Shown: positions 6,605 to 25,495 of the stretch, piece by piece
Layout: every line of letters begins with the position of its first letter
How positions within the stretch are numbered: position 1 is the first letter of the stretch
Source: a virus
Length of the DNA stretch: 35,834 nt
Virus record (IMG/VR): IMGVR_UViG_3300029319_000185
Coordinates: 1 to 35,834 of that record
Strand: one strand, 5' to 3'
The notes under the pieces: generated by a model
What the model saw: the letters and a program-made list of their open reading frames with translations, nothing else
The model's database searches: none
What the model was told of the DNA's origin: nothing
Made by a program: the position numbers and the translations under genes

Positions 6605-9376
6605 ATGGCAATAGATCTTTCAAGATTAAGTGATTCAGATTTAGATGCTCTTGAACAAAATGATTTTTCAAAAATATCTAATGAAGGTTTAGATATTTTA
6701 GAGAATGCTACATTCGTCGAGAGTGTTCCTGTTGAAGAGCCTATAACAAATAAGCGCACTAAACAAAGCCGTGCATTTATGCAAAACAGAGCATCTGTTG
6801 ATCCTACTAAAAGAGGCTCTCAAAGAGAAGATTCCGATGATCTTGGGTTCATGCCGTTTCTTAACAGAAGCCTAGCCCAAATAGCAGGTAGTCCTGTTGA
6901 TGTAACTAACGCATTATTACAAAGCATAGGTTTAGGTTCAGAGCAACCATTTGGTGGTAGCCAAAGCATTCGCGCAGGTATGGAAGCGATTGGCGCACCA
7001 ACACCCGATAGAGATCCAGAAACATTTGCTGAAACTGCTGGTACAGTAGCAGGTGAAATAGCTGCATTTAGCGCACCGGTAAGTGCTACCGCTTTAGCCT
7101 TGTCAAAAGGCTCAGGTACAGTAGCGAATATATCAAAAACACTTATTAATGACTTAATAAATAGACCTGTCAGAACAGCAGCTACTGAAGCCGCGCTTGT
7201 TTCTCCTATAGCGTTAGCTCGTCAAGCAGGAGAGTCTGGAGACTTGGGTCCAACACAACAGATTCTTGCTGAAACTGCTGCTGGGGTTCTGCCGGCTACC
7301 GCAGTACAAACTGCTTCTAAATTTACACTGGGTAATCTTGGTCTAAAAGCCATAGCACCATTTACCCAAGCTGGTGCAAAAGCAAGAGCCGCTAGACGTG
7401 TTCAAACATTAGCAGAAGATCCACTAGACGCTGCAAGAAGAATAGAAGATCTAAGAGGCACAGACCTATTGCCTGCTGCTCGATCAGAAGATCCAGGTCT
7501 AATGGCCTTAGAAGAAACTGTTATTAGAGAAACGCCACAACAAAGTTCTCAGATGTCTACTAAGCGTTCTGACATAATGAACGATTTATCAAATACAATT
7601 ATTAAAAGCGGTAATGCAGCCAGTACACAAGACTTCTTCAAACTAAGAGCAGAAAGACTAAATCTAGCTATGCAAGCAAGGATTGAAAAAGCTACAGAAG
7701 AAGCTGCTGATGCTTTACGCATACTTGGTGATGAAAACCTAAGCCCAACAGAAGTGCGTCAATCATCCAATCAAATAGTAAGAGATGCACTTGAAAGAGC
7801 TTTAGATGACGCTAAAAAACAACAAGACGAGTTATGGAAAGCTATACCACAGAGTGCCAGAGGACCTGTTAAAAACACTATACAAACTTACAAAGATATA
7901 GTATCAAGAACTGCGAGCGCACAGATAGGTGATATTCCGGATTCAGCTAAACGAATTATAGGACCTAGCGCAAGAAGAAAGGGAAGGGGTCGAGTAACAC
8001 GTACAACAGTAAGAGAGCTTGATGGTTTATATAAGAAATTAGGAGAAGAGGCTAGAGATGCTAGAGCATCAGGATTCTTTAACGAAGCTAGAATCGCGGA
8101 AGACCTTAGAGAGGCTATTTTAAACGATTTAGGTAGCTTTACGTCAGATGAAGTATTTGTATCAGAGGCTATTGATGCCGCACGAACTTTTAGCCGTCAA
8201 ATGAATGAAAAATTTAACCGAGGCCCAGTTGGTAAAATACTTGCTTTTTCAAGAGAGGGCGGTGAAAAGATTGCTACTGAATTAACTATTTCTACTATAT
8301 TGCAACCAGGAGTAAAAGCAACGATTGGCTTTGAGGCTTTAAAAAAAGCAACAGATGATCCACTAGCCTTTGAAGCTATTTCTAACTTTCTAAAATCTAA
8401 GTTTTTCAGCCAAGTAGTTGATCCAACAACTGGTAGAATACGTAATCAATCTTCTGTGGATACTTTTTTAAGACAAAATGAAGATATACTTGATTTAGTT
8501 CCAACTGTAAAGGCTCAGTTAACCACAGCTAGAGATGCAGATGATGCTTTAAGATTAATTACAAACAGATCAGATGCTTTGAGAAAGAGTCTAGATAATC
8601 CTAAAATATCAAGTTTTGCATCAATAATTAATCAACCTGCGGACGTAGCAATTAATCAAGTATTTAATAATGTTGATCCACAATCAGCAATGCAACGATT
8701 AATCAATGCCGCAAGAAAGGATAAATTAGGTCAAGCGTCTGATGGATTAAAATCATCAGTTTCAGAGTACTTAATAAACAGAATTACTACTGGTAGATTA
8801 GATAGTCAAGGAAGGCCAGTATTAAATGGATTAGAATTACAACGGTTACTAAAAGATACAAAAGTATCTAAAACTCTAAGTTTAATATTTAATCCACAAG
8901 AACTTTCGGAGTTAAGTAATGTTGCTAAACAGATGTCATCTTTGCAACTACAATCACAAATAAATCCATTAACAAGAATATCAGATGACCGTGCTGGATT
9001 TATTGTAGAAAAAATTGCTCAAATTATTGGTGCTAAAATTGGGGCTAAATTATCTAGCACTTCTGGTGGGTCAATACAATCAGCATCCATTGGCTCTACT
9101 GTTGCTAGAAAGTGGTTGAACAATTTAACTTCTAGAACAGCAAAACAATTATTAATTGATGCAGTCCGTGATCCAGAGCTAATGGTGACTCTGTTGCAAC
9201 ATAGAACTGCTAACAAAGCCAATGAGAGAGTAATACGAAACTATATGATCTCTCCATTAGGATCCAGGCTAGTTGACCCAGAACTATTAGAGGAAGCCAA
9301 AGAAGAGGCTAAGGCTTTTGCAGGTTCTCCTAAATCTAAAAAAATTGGTCAGCAACGAGGCCGTGGGACACGTTAA
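6605..9376 (+). CDS. Large putative internal virion / DNA-ejection protein, 923 aa
   Basis: It starts at an ATG 5 nt after the previous stop. Residues 1-70 are acidic and low in structure (LSRLSDSDLDALEQNDFSKI). Residues of about 140-250 are Ala/Gly-rich and mildly hydrophobic (AETAGTVAGEIAAFSAPVSA), as in ejected proteins that enter or cross membranes. The rest is charged and helical. I see no lytic transglycosylase or other catalytic motif. As the largest and last protein of the late transcript, just before the convergent junction, it fits the role of T7 gp16-like ejection proteins by position and size; sequence homology is not evident. Confidence 0.75.
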   Translation: MAIDLSRLSDSDLDALEQNDFSKISNEGLDILENATFVESVPVEEPITNKRTKQSRAFMQNRASVDPTKRGSQREDSDDLGFMPFLNRSLAQIAGSPVDVTNALLQSIGLGSEQPFGGSQSIRAGMEAIGAPTPDRDPETFAETAGTVAGEIAAFSAPVSATALALSKGSGTVANISKTLINDLINRPVRTAATEAALVSPIALARQAGESGDLGPTQQILAETAAGVLPATAVQTASKFTLGNLGLKAIAPFTQAGAKARAARRVQTLAEDPLDAARRIEDLRGTDLLPAARSEDPGLMALEETVIRETPQQSSQMSTKRSDIMNDLSNTIIKSGNAASTQDFFKLRAERLNLAMQARIEKATEEAADALRILGDENLSPTEVRQSSNQIVRDALERALDDAKKQQDELWKAIPQSARGPVKNTIQTYKDIVSRTASAQIGDIPDSAKRIIGPSARRKGRGRVTRTTVRELDGLYKKLGEEARDARASGFFNEARIAEDLREAILNDLGSFTSDEVFVSEAIDAARTFSRQMNEKFNRGPVGKILAFSREGGEKIATELTISTILQPGVKATIGFEALKKATDDPLAFEAISNFLKSKFFSQVVDPTTGRIRNQSSVDTFLRQNEDILDLVPTVKAQLTTARDADDALRLITNRSDALRKSLDNPKISSFASIINQPADVAINQVFNNVDPQSAMQRLINAARKDKLGQASDGLKSSVSEYLINRITTGRLDSQGRPVLNGLELQRLLKDTKVSKTLSLIFNPQELSELSNVAKQMSSLQLQSQINPLTRISDDRAGFIVEKIAQIIGAKIGAKLSSTSGGSIQSASIGSTVARKWLNNLTSRTAKQLLIDAVRDPELMVTLLQHRTANKANERVIRNYMISPLGSRLVDPELLEEAKEEAKAFAGSPKSKKIGQQRGRGTR

Positions 9377-9429
9377 AAAAAACAAATAAAAAAGGGCTGC
9401 TCCGCGAAATTGATAAAACGGAACAGCCC
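9374..9429 (-). terminator. Intrinsic terminator of the leftward (early) transcript
   Basis: Arms 9394-9404 (GGGCTGCTCCG) and 9419-9429 (CGGAACAGCCC) pair over 11 bp with one C-A mismatch around a 14-nt loop. Read on the minus strand, the hairpin is followed by TTTTTTATTTG and then eight more Ts. The plus strand has no T tract after it, so it acts on minus-strand RNA. It lies in the convergent junction between the late genes (end 9376) and the early genes (end 9579). Confidence 0.85.
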
Positions 9430-9545
9430 CAAGGATTGAACAAAAGGGAGGACTATGAAAACCTCACTTCGCTTGGGATTACTCCTTCAGCTTACCTTGT
9501 ATTTTATATGTGAACCAACTAACACACAAACCACCGTGTGATAGA
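9394..9545 (-). ncRNA. Candidate small RNA (promoter-to-terminator unit)
   Basis: A minus-strand promoter at 9549-9582 and the terminator at 9374-9429 frame about 150 nt with no credible minus-strand gene. Read on the minus strand, the 5' end can form a CACAC/GTGTG hairpin (near 9524-9541). Next comes an open stretch, TGTTAGTTGGTTCAC, complementary to the AACCAACTAA leader found before several early genes. An inner GAGG/CCTC hairpin and the terminator follow. It could instead be the 3' untranslated end of the early transcript. Existence as a separate RNA is inference. Confidence 0.35.
9455..9541 (+). CDS. Possible 28-aa hydrophobic peptide (doubtful)
   Basis: On the plus strand GGGAGG stands 3 nt before ATG 9455. 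The frame encodes MKTSLRLGLLLQLTLYFIC followed by EPTNTQTTV: a basic start, a hydrophobic stretch and a Cys, like a very short signal or lipoprotein-type peptide. It lies just after the late genes and opposite the candidate small RNA. The Shine-Dalgarno spacing is short, and the residues before the Cys (YFI) fit a lipobox poorly. A chance reading frame is quite possible. Confidence 0.3.
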   Translation: MKTSLRLGLLLQLTLYFICEPTNTQTTV

Positions 9546-9548
9546 ATA

Positions 9549-9582
9549 AGTATATCATGCCTGACTTGTGTTCTTATGTCAA
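9549..9582 (-). promoter_or_regulatory. Candidate sigma70-type promoter, leftward
   Basis: On the minus strand TTGACA (9577-9582) is followed 17 bp later by CATGAT (9554-9559). An extended -10 TGATATACT lies at 9549-9557. The -35 overlaps the stop codon of the HNH gene. The -35 box is perfect; the -10 is either weak at optimal spacing or good but spaced 22 bp. Confidence 0.45.
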
Positions 9583-9830
9583 GAAGAATGCTCTAGCCTA
9601 TGACAGTTCGAGCATAGAAGTTCGCACTTTTCTAACTCCTGTAGGAACTCCTCCTTAGTGCCGGACCTAACAAAGTCCCTTATGGATTTTAGTTTTTCGT
9701 GACCAGGTAAATGGTGACAATCGAACTGCACTGCCTGTCCCTTGAAGTGACACCTGCTGCAGACATAGCCACCAAAAAAATCTTCTATAATTTTCCGGTA
9801 CCTAACAGTCCGCTTCTGGTGTTGCTTCAT
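9579..9830 (-). CDS. HNH endonuclease, small
   Basis: The ATG at 9830 is one base after the dnaB stop codon. A longer frame reaching 9941 would run inside dnaB and is not preferred. The 83-residue product has a CSRC pair, a central QFDCHHLPG segment with the catalytic His region, and a second pair, LLCSNCHRLEH. The two Cys pairs would bind structural zinc, as in HNH nucleases. It is last in the leftward operon. It may be a phage nuclease for recombination or packaging, or a free-standing homing-type enzyme. The zinc and His residues are intact, so activity is plausible. Confidence 0.85.
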   Translation of the reverse strand: MKQHQKRTVRYRKIIEDFFGGYVCSRCHFKGQAVQFDCHHLPGHEKLKSIRDFVRSGTKEEFLQELEKCELLCSNCHRLEHSS

Positions 9831-9831
9831 T

Positions 9832-11118
9832 CTATATGAATTGTGAAAAGTCCTCCATCCTTTGGGTTGCTTTGTAGAAGTTGATACGGCCTTGGGAGTA
9901 ACCAATGCCCTCTCTTTGTTTTGCAAGAGTCCACCGCACAAAGTCAGCTTGCTCTTCTTTCTCCGACAAAGTTTGCCAAAGAAATATTATACTATCAGCG
10001 TCCTGTTCTAAGGCTCCACTCTCACGTAGGTCAGACATAATAGGTGACCGATCATCCTTCTCTGATTCACGGTTCACCTGAGCCAGCAATATAACTGGTA
10101 CGTCAAGATCCTTAGCAAGCAACTTCATCTCACGGCTAATCTCTGCTACCTGTTGCTCTCTCGATATATTCTGAGACATAGGCTTGATCAACTGGCAGTA
10201 ATCAATAATGATTCCATTTAAGGAATGCTTTCGGTGCATACCTCTTGCCGTGGCTAGTATGTGGTCAAGCTTGTACACTCGGTCACGGATATGGCACTTC
10301 CATCCCTTTACAATTTTTGTGGTGTCCTTCAGTGCCTGTACCCTATGCTCTGGAGCTAGTCCATCTTCGAACCTACGCATATTAAGATTCGAGTGAATAC
10401 TAAATATACGCTTCATAATCTGACTAGCACCCATCTCTAGATTAAAGAGAAGTGCTGCATTGTTATTCATGCAGGTGTTACGTAGAAAGTTCAGAGCGTA
10501 GGCGGTCTTACCGCACCCTGGTCTTGATGCTAGTACACAGAGTTGACCTGGTCCGTAGCCATTCCTGTAAAGCACATCGTCGATGGATTGAATACCAGTT
10601 TTTAAATACTTGCAATAATTAACCTTACTGGTAACGTCCTTGTAAGTCTCATCGACAATACTTTCTAGGGTATCTTGTGACGGAGCTAGTGAAGATATAC
10701 TATCGCAATGGCTCTGAACAGTAGTAAGGATCTCTTCTGATTCCTTGCCCTCAGATAGCGCATCTTTAATTGTAAGTGACAGCCGAGACAGTCTACTTGT
10801 TCTGTAGCCCTCTACCATTTCCGTGACTAGATTACTGTAGTGCAGTTCACTTAGCCCATCGTCATTAATTGACCATACCTCGTTAGGCTTTAGTTCATTG
10901 TCACCTTTTTGTAGATGAGTAAACAGCGATACCGTATCAAGGACTACACCCTTGGAATCCAGTTCGCACATAGCGTCCCACATAGCACGTGTATCGTACG
11001 CTAGGAAAAACTCAGAGCTTATGCCAGCTTCTCTTGCTTCTGTTAGTAAAGCATTGGAGCCGTCATTGATTTCTGCTTTGAGTATAGTCCCTAAGAGACT
11101 TCTTTCTAATTCTTTCAT
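9832..11118 (-). CDS. dnaB: Replicative DNA helicase, DnaB family
   Basis: A 428-residue protein with a short N-terminal DnaB-like helical domain (to about residue 115) and a RecA-type motor. Walker A is ASRPGCGKTA at residues 197-206; Walker B lies in GIIIDYCQLI. The conserved DnaB block LLAQVNRE, then SDLRESGALEQDADSIIFLW, is complete. DnaB forms a hexamer and unwinds the replication fork with ATP. No polymerase or primase is visible in the window, so this helicase probably loads host replication enzymes onto phage DNA. The start is ATG 11118 with the AT-rich leader AAATATAAATACTATG and no Shine-Dalgarno site. An intrinsic terminator stands just upstream at 11143-11175. Confidence 0.95.
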   Translation of the reverse strand: MKELERSLLGTILKAEINDGSNALLTEAREAGISSEFFLAYDTRAMWDAMCELDSKGVVLDTVSLFTHLQKGDNELKPNEVWSINDDGLSELHYSNLVTEMVEGYRTSRLSRLSLTIKDALSEGKESEEILTTVQSHCDSISSLAPSQDTLESIVDETYKDVTSKVNYCKYLKTGIQSIDDVLYRNGYGPGQLCVLASRPGCGKTAYALNFLRNTCMNNNAALLFNLEMGASQIMKRIFSIHSNLNMRRFEDGLAPEHRVQALKDTTKIVKGWKCHIRDRVYKLDHILATARGMHRKHSLNGIIIDYCQLIKPMSQNISREQQVAEISREMKLLAKDLDVPVILLAQVNRESEKDDRSPIMSDLRESGALEQDADSIIFLWQTLSEKEEQADFVRWTLAKQREGIGYSQGRINFYKATQRMEDFSQFI

Positions 11119-11187: not shown

Positions 11188-11454
11188 CTAAAAAGGATCG
11201 TCCTCTACAGCAGCAGCGGTCGGTTGACTTAGGACACTGCCTCTTCGATATTGCTCAGGCTGTTTGTCCTCGTCAAGACGTGTTAGTCTTAGGTTCATAA
11301 CAGGTCCTGACTTGCTTTGGTTCTTCCATGCAGCTGCACGATACTTACCAGCTTGAGTTACCTCAAGTGTTCCTGTTGCGTGAGGCGCAGAATCGGACTC
11401 ACGGTTACTCTCGGGGAATAGCACCCCTGTGTTTTCATTATTGTATTTAGTCAT
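11188..11454 (-). CDS. Small single-stranded-DNA-binding-like protein
   Basis: An 88-residue protein. Its N-terminus (MTKYNNENTGVLFPES) and a central GKYRAAAWKNQSKSGPVMNL strand pair resemble a small family of phage and plasmid proteins with short OB-like beta folds. The C-terminus ends in VEDDPF, close to the acidic DDDIPF tip by which bacterial SSB recruits replication partners. It lies directly downstream of the ERF annealing gene, where phage single-strand binding proteins often sit. No Shine-Dalgarno site; the leader is CTAACTAACCATAATCAATATG-like. The family assignment is tentative; the acidic tip is directly visible. Confidence 0.7.
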   Translation of the reverse strand: MTKYNNENTGVLFPESNRESDSAPHATGTLEVTQAGKYRAAAWKNQSKSGPVMNLRLTRLDEDKQPEQYRRGSVLSQPTAAAVEDDPF

Positions 11455-11469
11455 ATTGATTATGGTTAG

Positions 11470-11925
11470 TTAGAAATCAAAATTTGTACTAACAGTAGCC
11501 ATTGGCGTTTTTGGCTTCTTGCCATGATCGTTGGTAGCATCAGCGTCTTTTGTATCATCGATAGCAAAGAGTCCATTGAGTGCGTACTTACGTGCGTAAG
11601 AACTAGCGGAGCCAGTAATCTGTGAATCGTCCATACCCTTGCGTGACTCAGCTTCTCTTGCAAAGCCCTGTACTTGTATAGAATAATCCGATTCAGCTTC
11701 AGCTAGGACTGCGGTGGCTTTGACATATACTCTGCCCTCTACCCCAACTATATCGTCGGAGAGAACAAGCGTACAACTGTACTCAGATAGTAACGGTTTT
11801 ACTGCTGTGAGTATGTCTTCAGCGGAGCGATACGAGTACCCTCCGAACTTATTAGTCTGCCCCTTAGGAGCTTTGAGGGATGACTGAATCCCTTGTAGTT
11901 TTTCATGTATGGTTCTTTTTTCCAT
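11470..11925 (-). CDS. erf: ERF-family single-strand annealing recombinase
   Basis: A 151-residue protein with the hallmark ERF signature GSASSYARKYAL followed by LFAIDDTKDADAT, and an N-terminal NKFGGYSYRSAEDI segment. ERF proteins anneal complementary single strands during phage recombination and genome circularisation. It is somewhat shorter than P22 Erf (about 204 aa), lacking much of a C-terminal extension. It is preceded by the EndoVII-like gene, which overlaps its start by 23 nt, and a RecB-type exonuclease lies upstream in the operon, giving an exonuclease plus annealing system. The ATG at 11925 has an AT-rich leader (AACTAAACATAAATATG) and no Shine-Dalgarno site. Confidence 0.92.
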   Translation of the reverse strand: MEKRTIHEKLQGIQSSLKAPKGQTNKFGGYSYRSAEDILTAVKPLLSEYSCTLVLSDDIVGVEGRVYVKATAVLAEAESDYSIQVQGFAREAESRKGMDDSQITGSASSYARKYALNGLFAIDDTKDADATNDHGKKPKTPMATVSTNFDF

Positions 11926-15399: not shown

Positions 15400-15417
15400 A
15401 GTATTAGTTGGTTAGTG
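15396..15417 (-). repeat. Early leader motif, copy 1
   Basis: This 22-bp sequence is identical to 15941-15962. Read on the minus strand it is CACTAACCAACTAATACT followed by ATGA. It ends with the start codon of the 71-aa gene and contains the stop codon of the 80-aa gene. Looser versions stand before most other early genes. Confidence 0.85.
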
Positions 15418-15944: not shown

Positions 15945-15962
15945 AGTATTAGTTGGTTAGTG
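15941..15962 (-). repeat. Early leader motif, copy 2
   Basis: Identical over 22 bp to 15396-15417. It ends with the start codon of the 93-aa acidic gene. It contains no Shine-Dalgarno-like sequence, so the leader itself probably guides ribosomes or a regulator. Confidence 0.85.
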
Positions 15963-24487: not shown

Positions 24488-25495
24488 ATGGCATTCTCAA
24501 ATACATTCGATACTACAAATACAGGATCGGCTGTCTCAAATCGTGAGGACTTGACAGATGTCTTGACTATTCTTGCGCCCGAAGAGACTCCTATCCTTTC
24601 GTCTGCTAACAAAGAACGCGCATCTGCAACTAATGTTGAGTGGACTGTTGACAGCCTTTCTGCACCCAGCACTGCTGGTATCTCAGAAGGAGCTGACGTA
24701 ACAGCATTCACTGACAAATTTGCAAGCCGCGCTCGTCTTAACAATCGCATACAAAAATTCCGTCGTGACTACATGGTTTCTGATCTGCAAGAAGCAGTTG
24801 ATTCCGTAGGTCCTGCTAAAATCGCACAAGCTGAAGCTAAAGCTATCCGTGAACTAAAACGTGATATTGAAGCTACACTTGCTGGAACTCAAGACAAAGC
24901 CACAGAAGATGGTGCTGGTACAGCAAATGCACTTCGTGGTCTTGGTGATTTCCTTGATTCTGCTGGTCCTTCTGATGTTCCTGCTGCTTATCGCACACCT
25001 GCTGATAGCATTTACACAACTTCAGAAGCTAATTCTGCTGAGTTTAGTGAATCTAAACTTAATGACATCATCAGTTCTATATTCCGCGTAACTGGTTCTG
25101 CTAACAATCTTTCGCTTGTTGCTGACACTGGTCTACGTCGTGTAATATCTGATTTTGCTCGTACAACTACATCTGCTACAGATAATGTTCGTACAGTAAA
25201 CTATGATGGCAACAGTGGTACTATTAAACTATCTGTTGATCTTTATGAGTCAGATCACGGAGTTGTTTCAATCGTAAATCAAAACCCTGATTGTGCGCCT
25301 AACTTTGGCGGTAACACAACCACTGGTTCTGGTTACATTGTCAACCCTGAGTACTATGGTATCCACGAACTTATCCCAATGGGAAGCACTCGTCTTCCTA
25401 ATCTTGGCGGTGGTGAGCGTGGATTTGTTGATTGCGCTTTGACCCTTGGTGTATATCACCCAGGCGCACATGGTGTTATCCAAGACATAACCTAA
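24488..25495 (+). CDS. Major capsid protein, SU10-like
   Basis: A 335-residue protein. The N-terminus matches the SU10-type major capsid family: NREDLTDVLTILAPEETPIL, an NVEWTVDSL segment, then RLNNRIQKFRRDYMVSDLQE and a KAIRELKRDIEATL helix (the spine helix of the HK97 fold). The C-terminus has the beta-rich axial domain and ends PGAHGVIQDIT. It builds the icosahedral shell. The start ATG 24488 has only an AT-rich leader (AATAATTAAATAAAATG) without a Shine-Dalgarno site, unusual for such a highly made protein. The following gene has a strong one. Confidence 0.92.
   Translation: MAFSNTFDTTNTGSAVSNREDLTDVLTILAPEETPILSSANKERASATNVEWTVDSLSAPSTAGISEGADVTAFTDKFASRARLNNRIQKFRRDYMVSDLQEAVDSVGPAKIAQAEAKAIRELKRDIEATLAGTQDKATEDGAGTANALRGLGDFLDSAGPSDVPAAYRTPADSIYTTSEANSAEFSESKLNDIISSIFRVTGSANNLSLVADTGLRRVISDFARTTTSATDNVRTVNYDGNSGTIKLSVDLYESDHGVVSIVNQNPDCAPNFGGNTTTGSGYIVNPEYYGIHELIPMGSTRLPNLGGGERGFVDCALTLGVYHPGAHGVIQDIT

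Follow-up and report, generated by a model that had tools for sequence, protein, structure and literature searches.

The c4 RNA is a structured antisense RNA of phages. It is catalogued as RF01695 (PMC2864571), and further phage-encoded RNAs are covered in PMC12197685, where P22 sar, lambda OOP, and lambda aQ are each described for a single message, lambda PreS for host dnaN, and VP882 VpdS for effects on phage and host mRNA levels through Hfq. Regulators can also come from the transcript they control: in the account of PMC7398697, OppZ and CarZ of Vibrio cholerae are autoregulatory small RNAs derived from 3' untranslated regions, processed by RNase E, that inhibit translation of their own transcript. 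A single phage factor acting on many messages is exemplified by T4 RegA, presented in PMC3014915 as a translational repressor protein that competes with ribosomes for initiation regions on about 30 mRNAs.

Here we analyze a locus in a virus record of 35,834 bases (the window, meaning the whole stretch of DNA that was analyzed), in which late genes lie on the plus strand and the early/replication block lies on the minus strand. At the point where the two blocks converge, after the HNH endonuclease gene ends at 9579, sequence comparisons suggest that marine phages carry an uncatalogued folded RNA at the end of their early genes, and that this RNA may control translation of those same genes. The reading we favor, to which we give roughly an even chance, is that of a conserved structured RNA of the operon end whose seed, in the window's own clade (clade 1), would pair in trans with early leaders and damp early translation.

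A candidate transcription unit at the early-late junction

The RNA site covers minus-strand positions 9542–9388, behind an extended -10 promoter; from its 5' end it comprises a hairpin, the exposed stretch GUUAGUUGGUUC, a core folded as a three-way junction, and a terminator (Table 1). The predicted transcript start is near 9542 on the minus strand. The initial annotation had described about 150 nt here as free of minus-strand genes, and no minus-strand open reading frame of at least 40 amino acids was found between the HNH gene and the convergent late gene. Its promoter, consisting of TTGACA and an extended -10, and its CACAC/GTGTG hairpin followed by an exposed stretch were likewise borne out, being present in the sequence and conserved in relatives. 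The terminator it placed at 9374 to 9429 is also present, but over a slightly shorter extent than claimed.

Table 1. Positions of the candidate RNA, its signals, neighboring genes, and predicted targets in the window
Feature	Position	Strand	Remarks
Last late gene, convergent	6605..9376	+	Opposite the RNA site
Intrinsic terminator stem and U-tract	9388..9429	-	Sequence and relatives
Core	9430..9499	-	P1 CAAGG/CCUUG; J12 UAA; P2 9491-9471, GNRA loop GUAA; P3 9468-9445; J31
Exposed seed GUUAGUUGGUUC (GTTAGTTGGTTC), 12 nt	9512..9523	-	Identical in all 53 relatives reaching the site
5' hairpin CACAC/GTGTG	9523..9540	-	Sequence and relatives
Extended -10, TGATATACT (TG-A-TATACT)	9549..9557	-	TGnTATA[AC]T in 35/35 distinct relatives
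TTGACA (-35-like box)	9577..9582	-	22 nt upstream of the -10; canonical spacing, 17
HNH endonuclease gene	9579..9832	-	Last early gene; promoter begins at its 3' end; start near 9831 read from sequence
DnaB-like helicase gene	9832-11118		RNA site lies downstream
SSB-like gene	11188..11454	-	Leader AACTAACCA; predicted target
Erf-like annealing protein gene	11470..11925	-	Leader GAATTAACTAAAC; predicted target, strongest duplex
AACCAACTAA leader element	15404..15413	-	Before gene 15399-15184, predicted target
AACCAACTAA leader element	15949..15958	-	Before gene 15944-15663, predicted target

The distance between TTGACA and the -10 is 21 or 22 nt in relatives, and this placement of the -35-like box makes the extended -10 the more secure element for calling the promoter. 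TTGACA is retained in relatives whose HNH stop codon is shifted upstream (L043 and L058), so its conservation does not come merely from coding sequence. Many clade 1 relatives also carry the inverted repeat ACATAGG-ACA-CCTATGT in the promoter spacer (for example, at L019:8373); this repeat is absent from the window and, lying between the -35-like box and the -10, is a possible operator.

Relatives were collected by a helicase search, which yielded 57 contigs. Conservation of the seed in related phages had been named as a check on the original proposal, and the exact 12-nt seed is found at the site, in one copy each, in 53 of these contigs, the other four ending before the RNA site. A pattern scan added three contigs, two in which the end of the HNH gene precedes the RNA and one that starts within the RNA. 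Hairpin, seed, and extended -10 are common to 35 distinct sequences, a set picked by the exact seed and counted after 2 of 54 seed-bearing sequences had been dropped (L003, at a contig end, and L005, which has GTTGACA for CTTGACA). Because promoter, hairpin, and seed are all conserved in relatives, they are not chance features. Judged by sequence only, the site has its own promoter (-10 in 35 of 35) and terminator (in 52 extracted sequences), with no conserved open frame.

Near-identical copies of the RNA can be followed, right after the terminator, by unrelated late-gene ends (L006 versus L018 and L019 versus L052), so the RNA marks a module boundary. The window itself is a mosaic of two lineages, as its capsid protein (24488-25495) is 69% identical to that of phage C75C1 and its helicase (9832-11118) 27%.

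A three-way-junction core found across phage clades

In the consensus fold, P2 has an internal loop and a GNRA tetraloop, P3 has a U-rich loop, and the terminator comes after the core. In an alignment of 25 chosen sequences (A5, a selection from the loci that was fitted to the model and so leans to the model's structure), 15 of the 19 pairs vary at both positions, and none of 500 shuffles equaled the alignment in any of five measures. The pair test inside clade 1 alone gave a modest result. AGGUAA and the GNRA loop are kept in clades 2 and 3, where the helicases are 26 to 28% identical to that of the window.

The decisive test of the fold was a model built from clade 1 alone and searched against other phages. 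Among 27 loci searched besides the window, it matched 13, from other clades, with E values of 2e-7 to 3e-4, the next match having an E value of 8.5, and all 13 matches lie at the end of the early operon. In a second set, 6 of 23 further loci matched (E values of 1e-6 to 1e-3, with L203 at 0.048); these cores sit at the operon end before a terminator, followed by a convergent gene where the locus extends far enough. The core of L112 was missed by the clade 1 model and was detected with a broader model only. A match within the helicase gene of L198 (E value of 0.81) was taken as chance. No match at an E value of ≤1 was obtained with the core model in 82 capsid-related phage loci (680 kb), and no matches came from searching phage records at the DNA level with the junction or from a helicase scan of genome contigs.

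Against Rfam 15, the window and nine relatives had no match at the gathering cutoff, the element giving subthreshold matches only, and the RNA was not found in a literature search judged by titles. By these comparisons, the core is a covariation-supported RNA family missing from Rfam 15; it spans dozens of phage contigs in helicase-guided searches, with phage C75C1 as the one named relative. Mimicry of the 16S rRNA 3' end by ACAAGGUAA and the GNRA hairpin was considered and rejected because only AGGUAA is kept and the rest of P1 covaries between clades.

The seed and promoter belong to the window's clade

In at least four phage clades, the early/replication operon closes with core and terminator, and the parts upstream of the core differ among these clades. 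In clade 3 (L113-L115, L123, L124, L126, and L127), the core follows directly from the last early gene, starting at its stop codon, and is accompanied by no promoter, 5' hairpin, or seed; clade 2 likewise has the core and lacks the seed. Phage C75C1 (L104) has a TGTTATAAT box and a different 5' hairpin ahead of its core, and no seed. Promoter and seed are thus a feature of the window's clade, set before an older 3'-end element. On this comparative evidence, the early operon has long ended in the core, and the promoter and antisense seed were additions made in the window's group. Since the core exists without the seed, and in one clade also without the promoter, leader pairing cannot be the only role of the RNAs that contain it. 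The layout of a trans-acting small RNA claimed in the initial annotation survives as a conserved structured RNA with a leader-matching seed, but the larger part of that RNA is an older core independent of the seed.

Alternatively, the site could be a cis-acting 3' structure of the early mRNA, serving as a stabilizer, a processing signal, a protein-binding site, or a regulated terminator, with the seed a secondary or incidental addition in one clade. The bare clade 3 core, starting directly at a stop codon, fits such a role, as does the fact that the core always adjoins the terminator. We regard it as unlikely, although a serious contender, since in clade 1 the promoter, hairpin, and 12-nt seed are conserved as well as the core is, and the seed is the best leader complement that the early transcript contains.

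L129-L136 had no core match at the corresponding site. After the helicase-adjacent gene, these loci have a different conserved hairpin in the core's place, with a GTTTTTCGTCCTTTCTTC core, closed in several of them by GGCTAACCA/TGGTTAGCC; a tRNA-Arg follows this hairpin in L132 and L133.

Complementarity between the seed and early leaders

In the window, AACCAACTAA occurs three times, one copy being the complement of the seed (9513-9522) and the other two lying on the early strand immediately ahead of start codons, in agreement with the 10-base match originally noted for at least two early genes. The chance mean is 0.17, and none of 100 shuffles reached three occurrences. The initial annotation also noted partial matches to further leaders. 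With two mismatches allowed, the whole window holds 54 sites versus 51.6 by chance, which is not above expectation. RNA-RNA prediction, a check that had been proposed for the early leaders, gave duplexes stronger than nearly all shuffles (P ≤ 0.04) for 6 of 18 leaders, those of the SSB-like and Erf-like genes included. The other 12 had no significant duplex, and 4 of the 18 gene coordinates used in this test are not on a start codon.

Leaders across relatives were taken from ATG-started open reading frames of at least 45 codons, chosen by length and deduplicated by similarity, and some of these starts are wrong. Unbiased word counts over 142 early leaders of clade 1 placed GAACC, AACCA, GAACCA, and AACCAA at or near the top; GAGGA stands there instead in 104 late clade 1 leaders, and GAAAGG and GGAGG are among the top words in early leaders of clades 2 and 3. 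At least eight Watson-Crick pairs to the seed are available in 14 of the 142 early leaders (shuffled mean, 1.3; maximum, 3), compared with 0 of 104 late leaders and 2 of 138 early leaders of clades 2 and 3. At seven pairs, none of 300 permuted seeds did as well as the real seed against early leaders. When one leader was counted per gene family, to remove redundancy, AACCAA (the seed complement) was found in about 21.7 of 70 early families versus 3.8 after shuffling, and in 1.0 of 33 late families.

The seed is the top leader-complementary 13-mer among the 7,944 in the window's 7.9-kb early transcript, and it ranks first among them against leaders of other phages as well. Of 27,858 late 13-mers, 16 equal or better it against other phages' leaders and 9 against the clade's own. 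In the window's clade, many early genes have the motif AACCAAYUAA close to where a Shine-Dalgarno sequence would lie. Of 39 AACCAA sites, 34 are followed by C or U, as pairing with the seed G requires; AACCAAU is as common as AACCAAC though its pairing to the seed is weaker, and agreement with the seed at the base following Y is weak. A conserved, exposed seed is thus complementary to several messages, and the RNA lies at the 3' end of the operon whose leaders it matches, the pairing being predicted only; the same motif also occurs without the RNA.

Similar leaders in phages without the RNA

Seven contigs (L186-L192) whose helicases are 39 to 42% identical to that of the window carry AACCAA in 17 of 78 leaders, versus 5.2 expected. 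Their contigs contained no convincing core (best E value, 0.63) and no sense-strand seed. All seven have TTAGTTGGTT, in one orientation only per record, and at the compared positions it equals the leader complement. Because the leader motif occurs here without seed or core, it does not depend on the RNA and is not by itself evidence of coevolution. Leaders and seed that fail to change together had been named at the outset as counting against the proposal, and these contigs present part of that picture, with the motif kept and the seed and core absent. In clades 2 and 3, where the seed is absent, AACCAA leaders are few (7 of 138); inside clade 1 the seed never varies, which leaves no seed-leader covariation. 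The motif may be older than the RNA or independent of it, and the RNA may have adapted to the motif. A/C-rich leaders of the AACCAACTAA type largely replace the Shine-Dalgarno sequence in clade 1 and in L186-L192, with and without the RNA, and this leader type possibly belongs to a common host.

A seed whose main targets are messages or small RNAs of the host, or messages of both host and phage with this leader type, would fit a motif that is shared by phages lacking the RNA. We consider such targeting improbable: in the only two metagenome-assembled genomes (MAGs) with capsid relatives, AACCAA occurred in 2 of 80 leaders versus 0.6 expected and in 2 of 170 versus 1.2, no clear enrichment in genomes whose link to the host is weak, and late phage leaders are without the motif. 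Naming a host from these capsid relatives, which lie in one Rickettsiales and one Opitutae MAG contig, was rejected since the contigs are short and may be misbinned; 16S rRNA was searched for in both MAGs and found in neither. A host homologue of the core was also rejected, since a scan of 141 genomes from a single class gave two R1 matches, both antisense within a coding gene and taken as chance.

Slimmer still is the prospect that the RNA aids translation of early genes lacking a Shine-Dalgarno sequence, with leader pairing favoring ribosome loading or protecting the mRNA. AACCA does end most often 8 to 9 nt before the AUG (18 of 44), which is the Shine-Dalgarno place, and only 2 of 142 leaders combine AACCA with a Shine-Dalgarno-like word; however, phages with such leaders and no RNA exist, and pairing at the Shine-Dalgarno position normally blocks initiation. 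We find it very hard to credit a hairpin acting at the DNA level as a replication or packaging signal. Its position downstream of a DnaB-like helicase gene would suit that role, but in clade 5 the core is 1 to 3 kb from the helicase and still at the operon end, and G-U pairs outnumber A-C mismatches 13 to 3 in the core helices (27 rows aligned by hand, three clade 3 rows omitting one outer P2 pair), as expected for RNA of the minus strand, to which the GNRA loops, upstream promoter, and downstream U-tract also point. A plus-strand peptide of 28 amino acids (9455-9541), with an ATG behind the purine-rich GGGAGGA and the minus-strand signals incidental, was ruled out because the frame is lost in near relatives, varying from 7 to 74 amino acids in 35 distinct sequences and shifting with 1- to 2-nt changes in the P3 loop.

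Other RNA elements in clade 1

The tmRNA model, scored in four loci scanned, matched stretches of 66 to 67 nt in the early region of clade 1 at 53 to 58 bits, above the cutoff (L025:1876-1942, L011:3170-3236, L040:2863-2929, and L032:3529-3594). The same start motif is present in L008, L020, L027, L033, and L038. The element is tRNA sized; its copy in L025 has a CCA end and, in a search of that copy by itself, also matches the tRNA model. ARAGORN called no gene at the element, except for a tRNA-Glu overlapping the L027 copy. It looks like a tRNA- or tmRNA-like gene without a tag frame. The window had no tmRNA-like match. RAGATH-24 RNA (RF03049) scored above the cutoff in two clade 1 relatives, at L025:153-223 and L032:363-592.

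Proposed role and comparison with known systems

Under the reading we favor, an RNA of about 155 nt would be made as an independent transcript in the window's clade, and probably also by read-through. Its seed would bind, in trans, the leaders of early genes, the SSB-like and Erf-like genes among them, covering the initiation region, and this pairing would damp early translation as feedback or shut-off. Repression of early translation is the likeliest role suggested by the sequence comparisons. For the core we offer a plain guess: as a stabilizer of the RNA or a protein-binding platform, most likely in a capacity older than the antisense function. More tentatively, it is possible that the widespread fold is a scaffold to which one lineage attached an antisense arm directed at a common early leader, giving a regulator of the early regulon or even a trans-acting guide that replaces the Shine-Dalgarno sequence of such leaders. 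Cores without a seed in other clades suggest how an operon-end structure can become a regulator, and the locus offers a concrete example in which a single phage RNA is matched to many early genes by a leader they share. If the proposal is true, a single RNA would regulate a whole early regulon, as an RNA counterpart of T4 RegA.

The RNA differs from the c4 antisense RNA (RF01695) in having no Rfam match and a different location. Like sar, OOP, aQ, PreS, and VpdS, it is phage encoded and matches phage or host messages, the pairing here being predicted; unlike those RNAs as described in PMC12197685, it matches a leader motif common to many early genes. It resembles OppZ and CarZ, in the account of PMC7398697, in coming from the 3' end of an operon and matching its own transcript, again with predicted pairing, and differs from them in having its own promoter in the window's clade, a three-way-junction core, and many putative leader targets. 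Like T4 RegA as presented in PMC3014915, it would be one phage factor acting at many early initiation regions, but it would do so as an RNA, through base pairing, whereas RegA is a protein.
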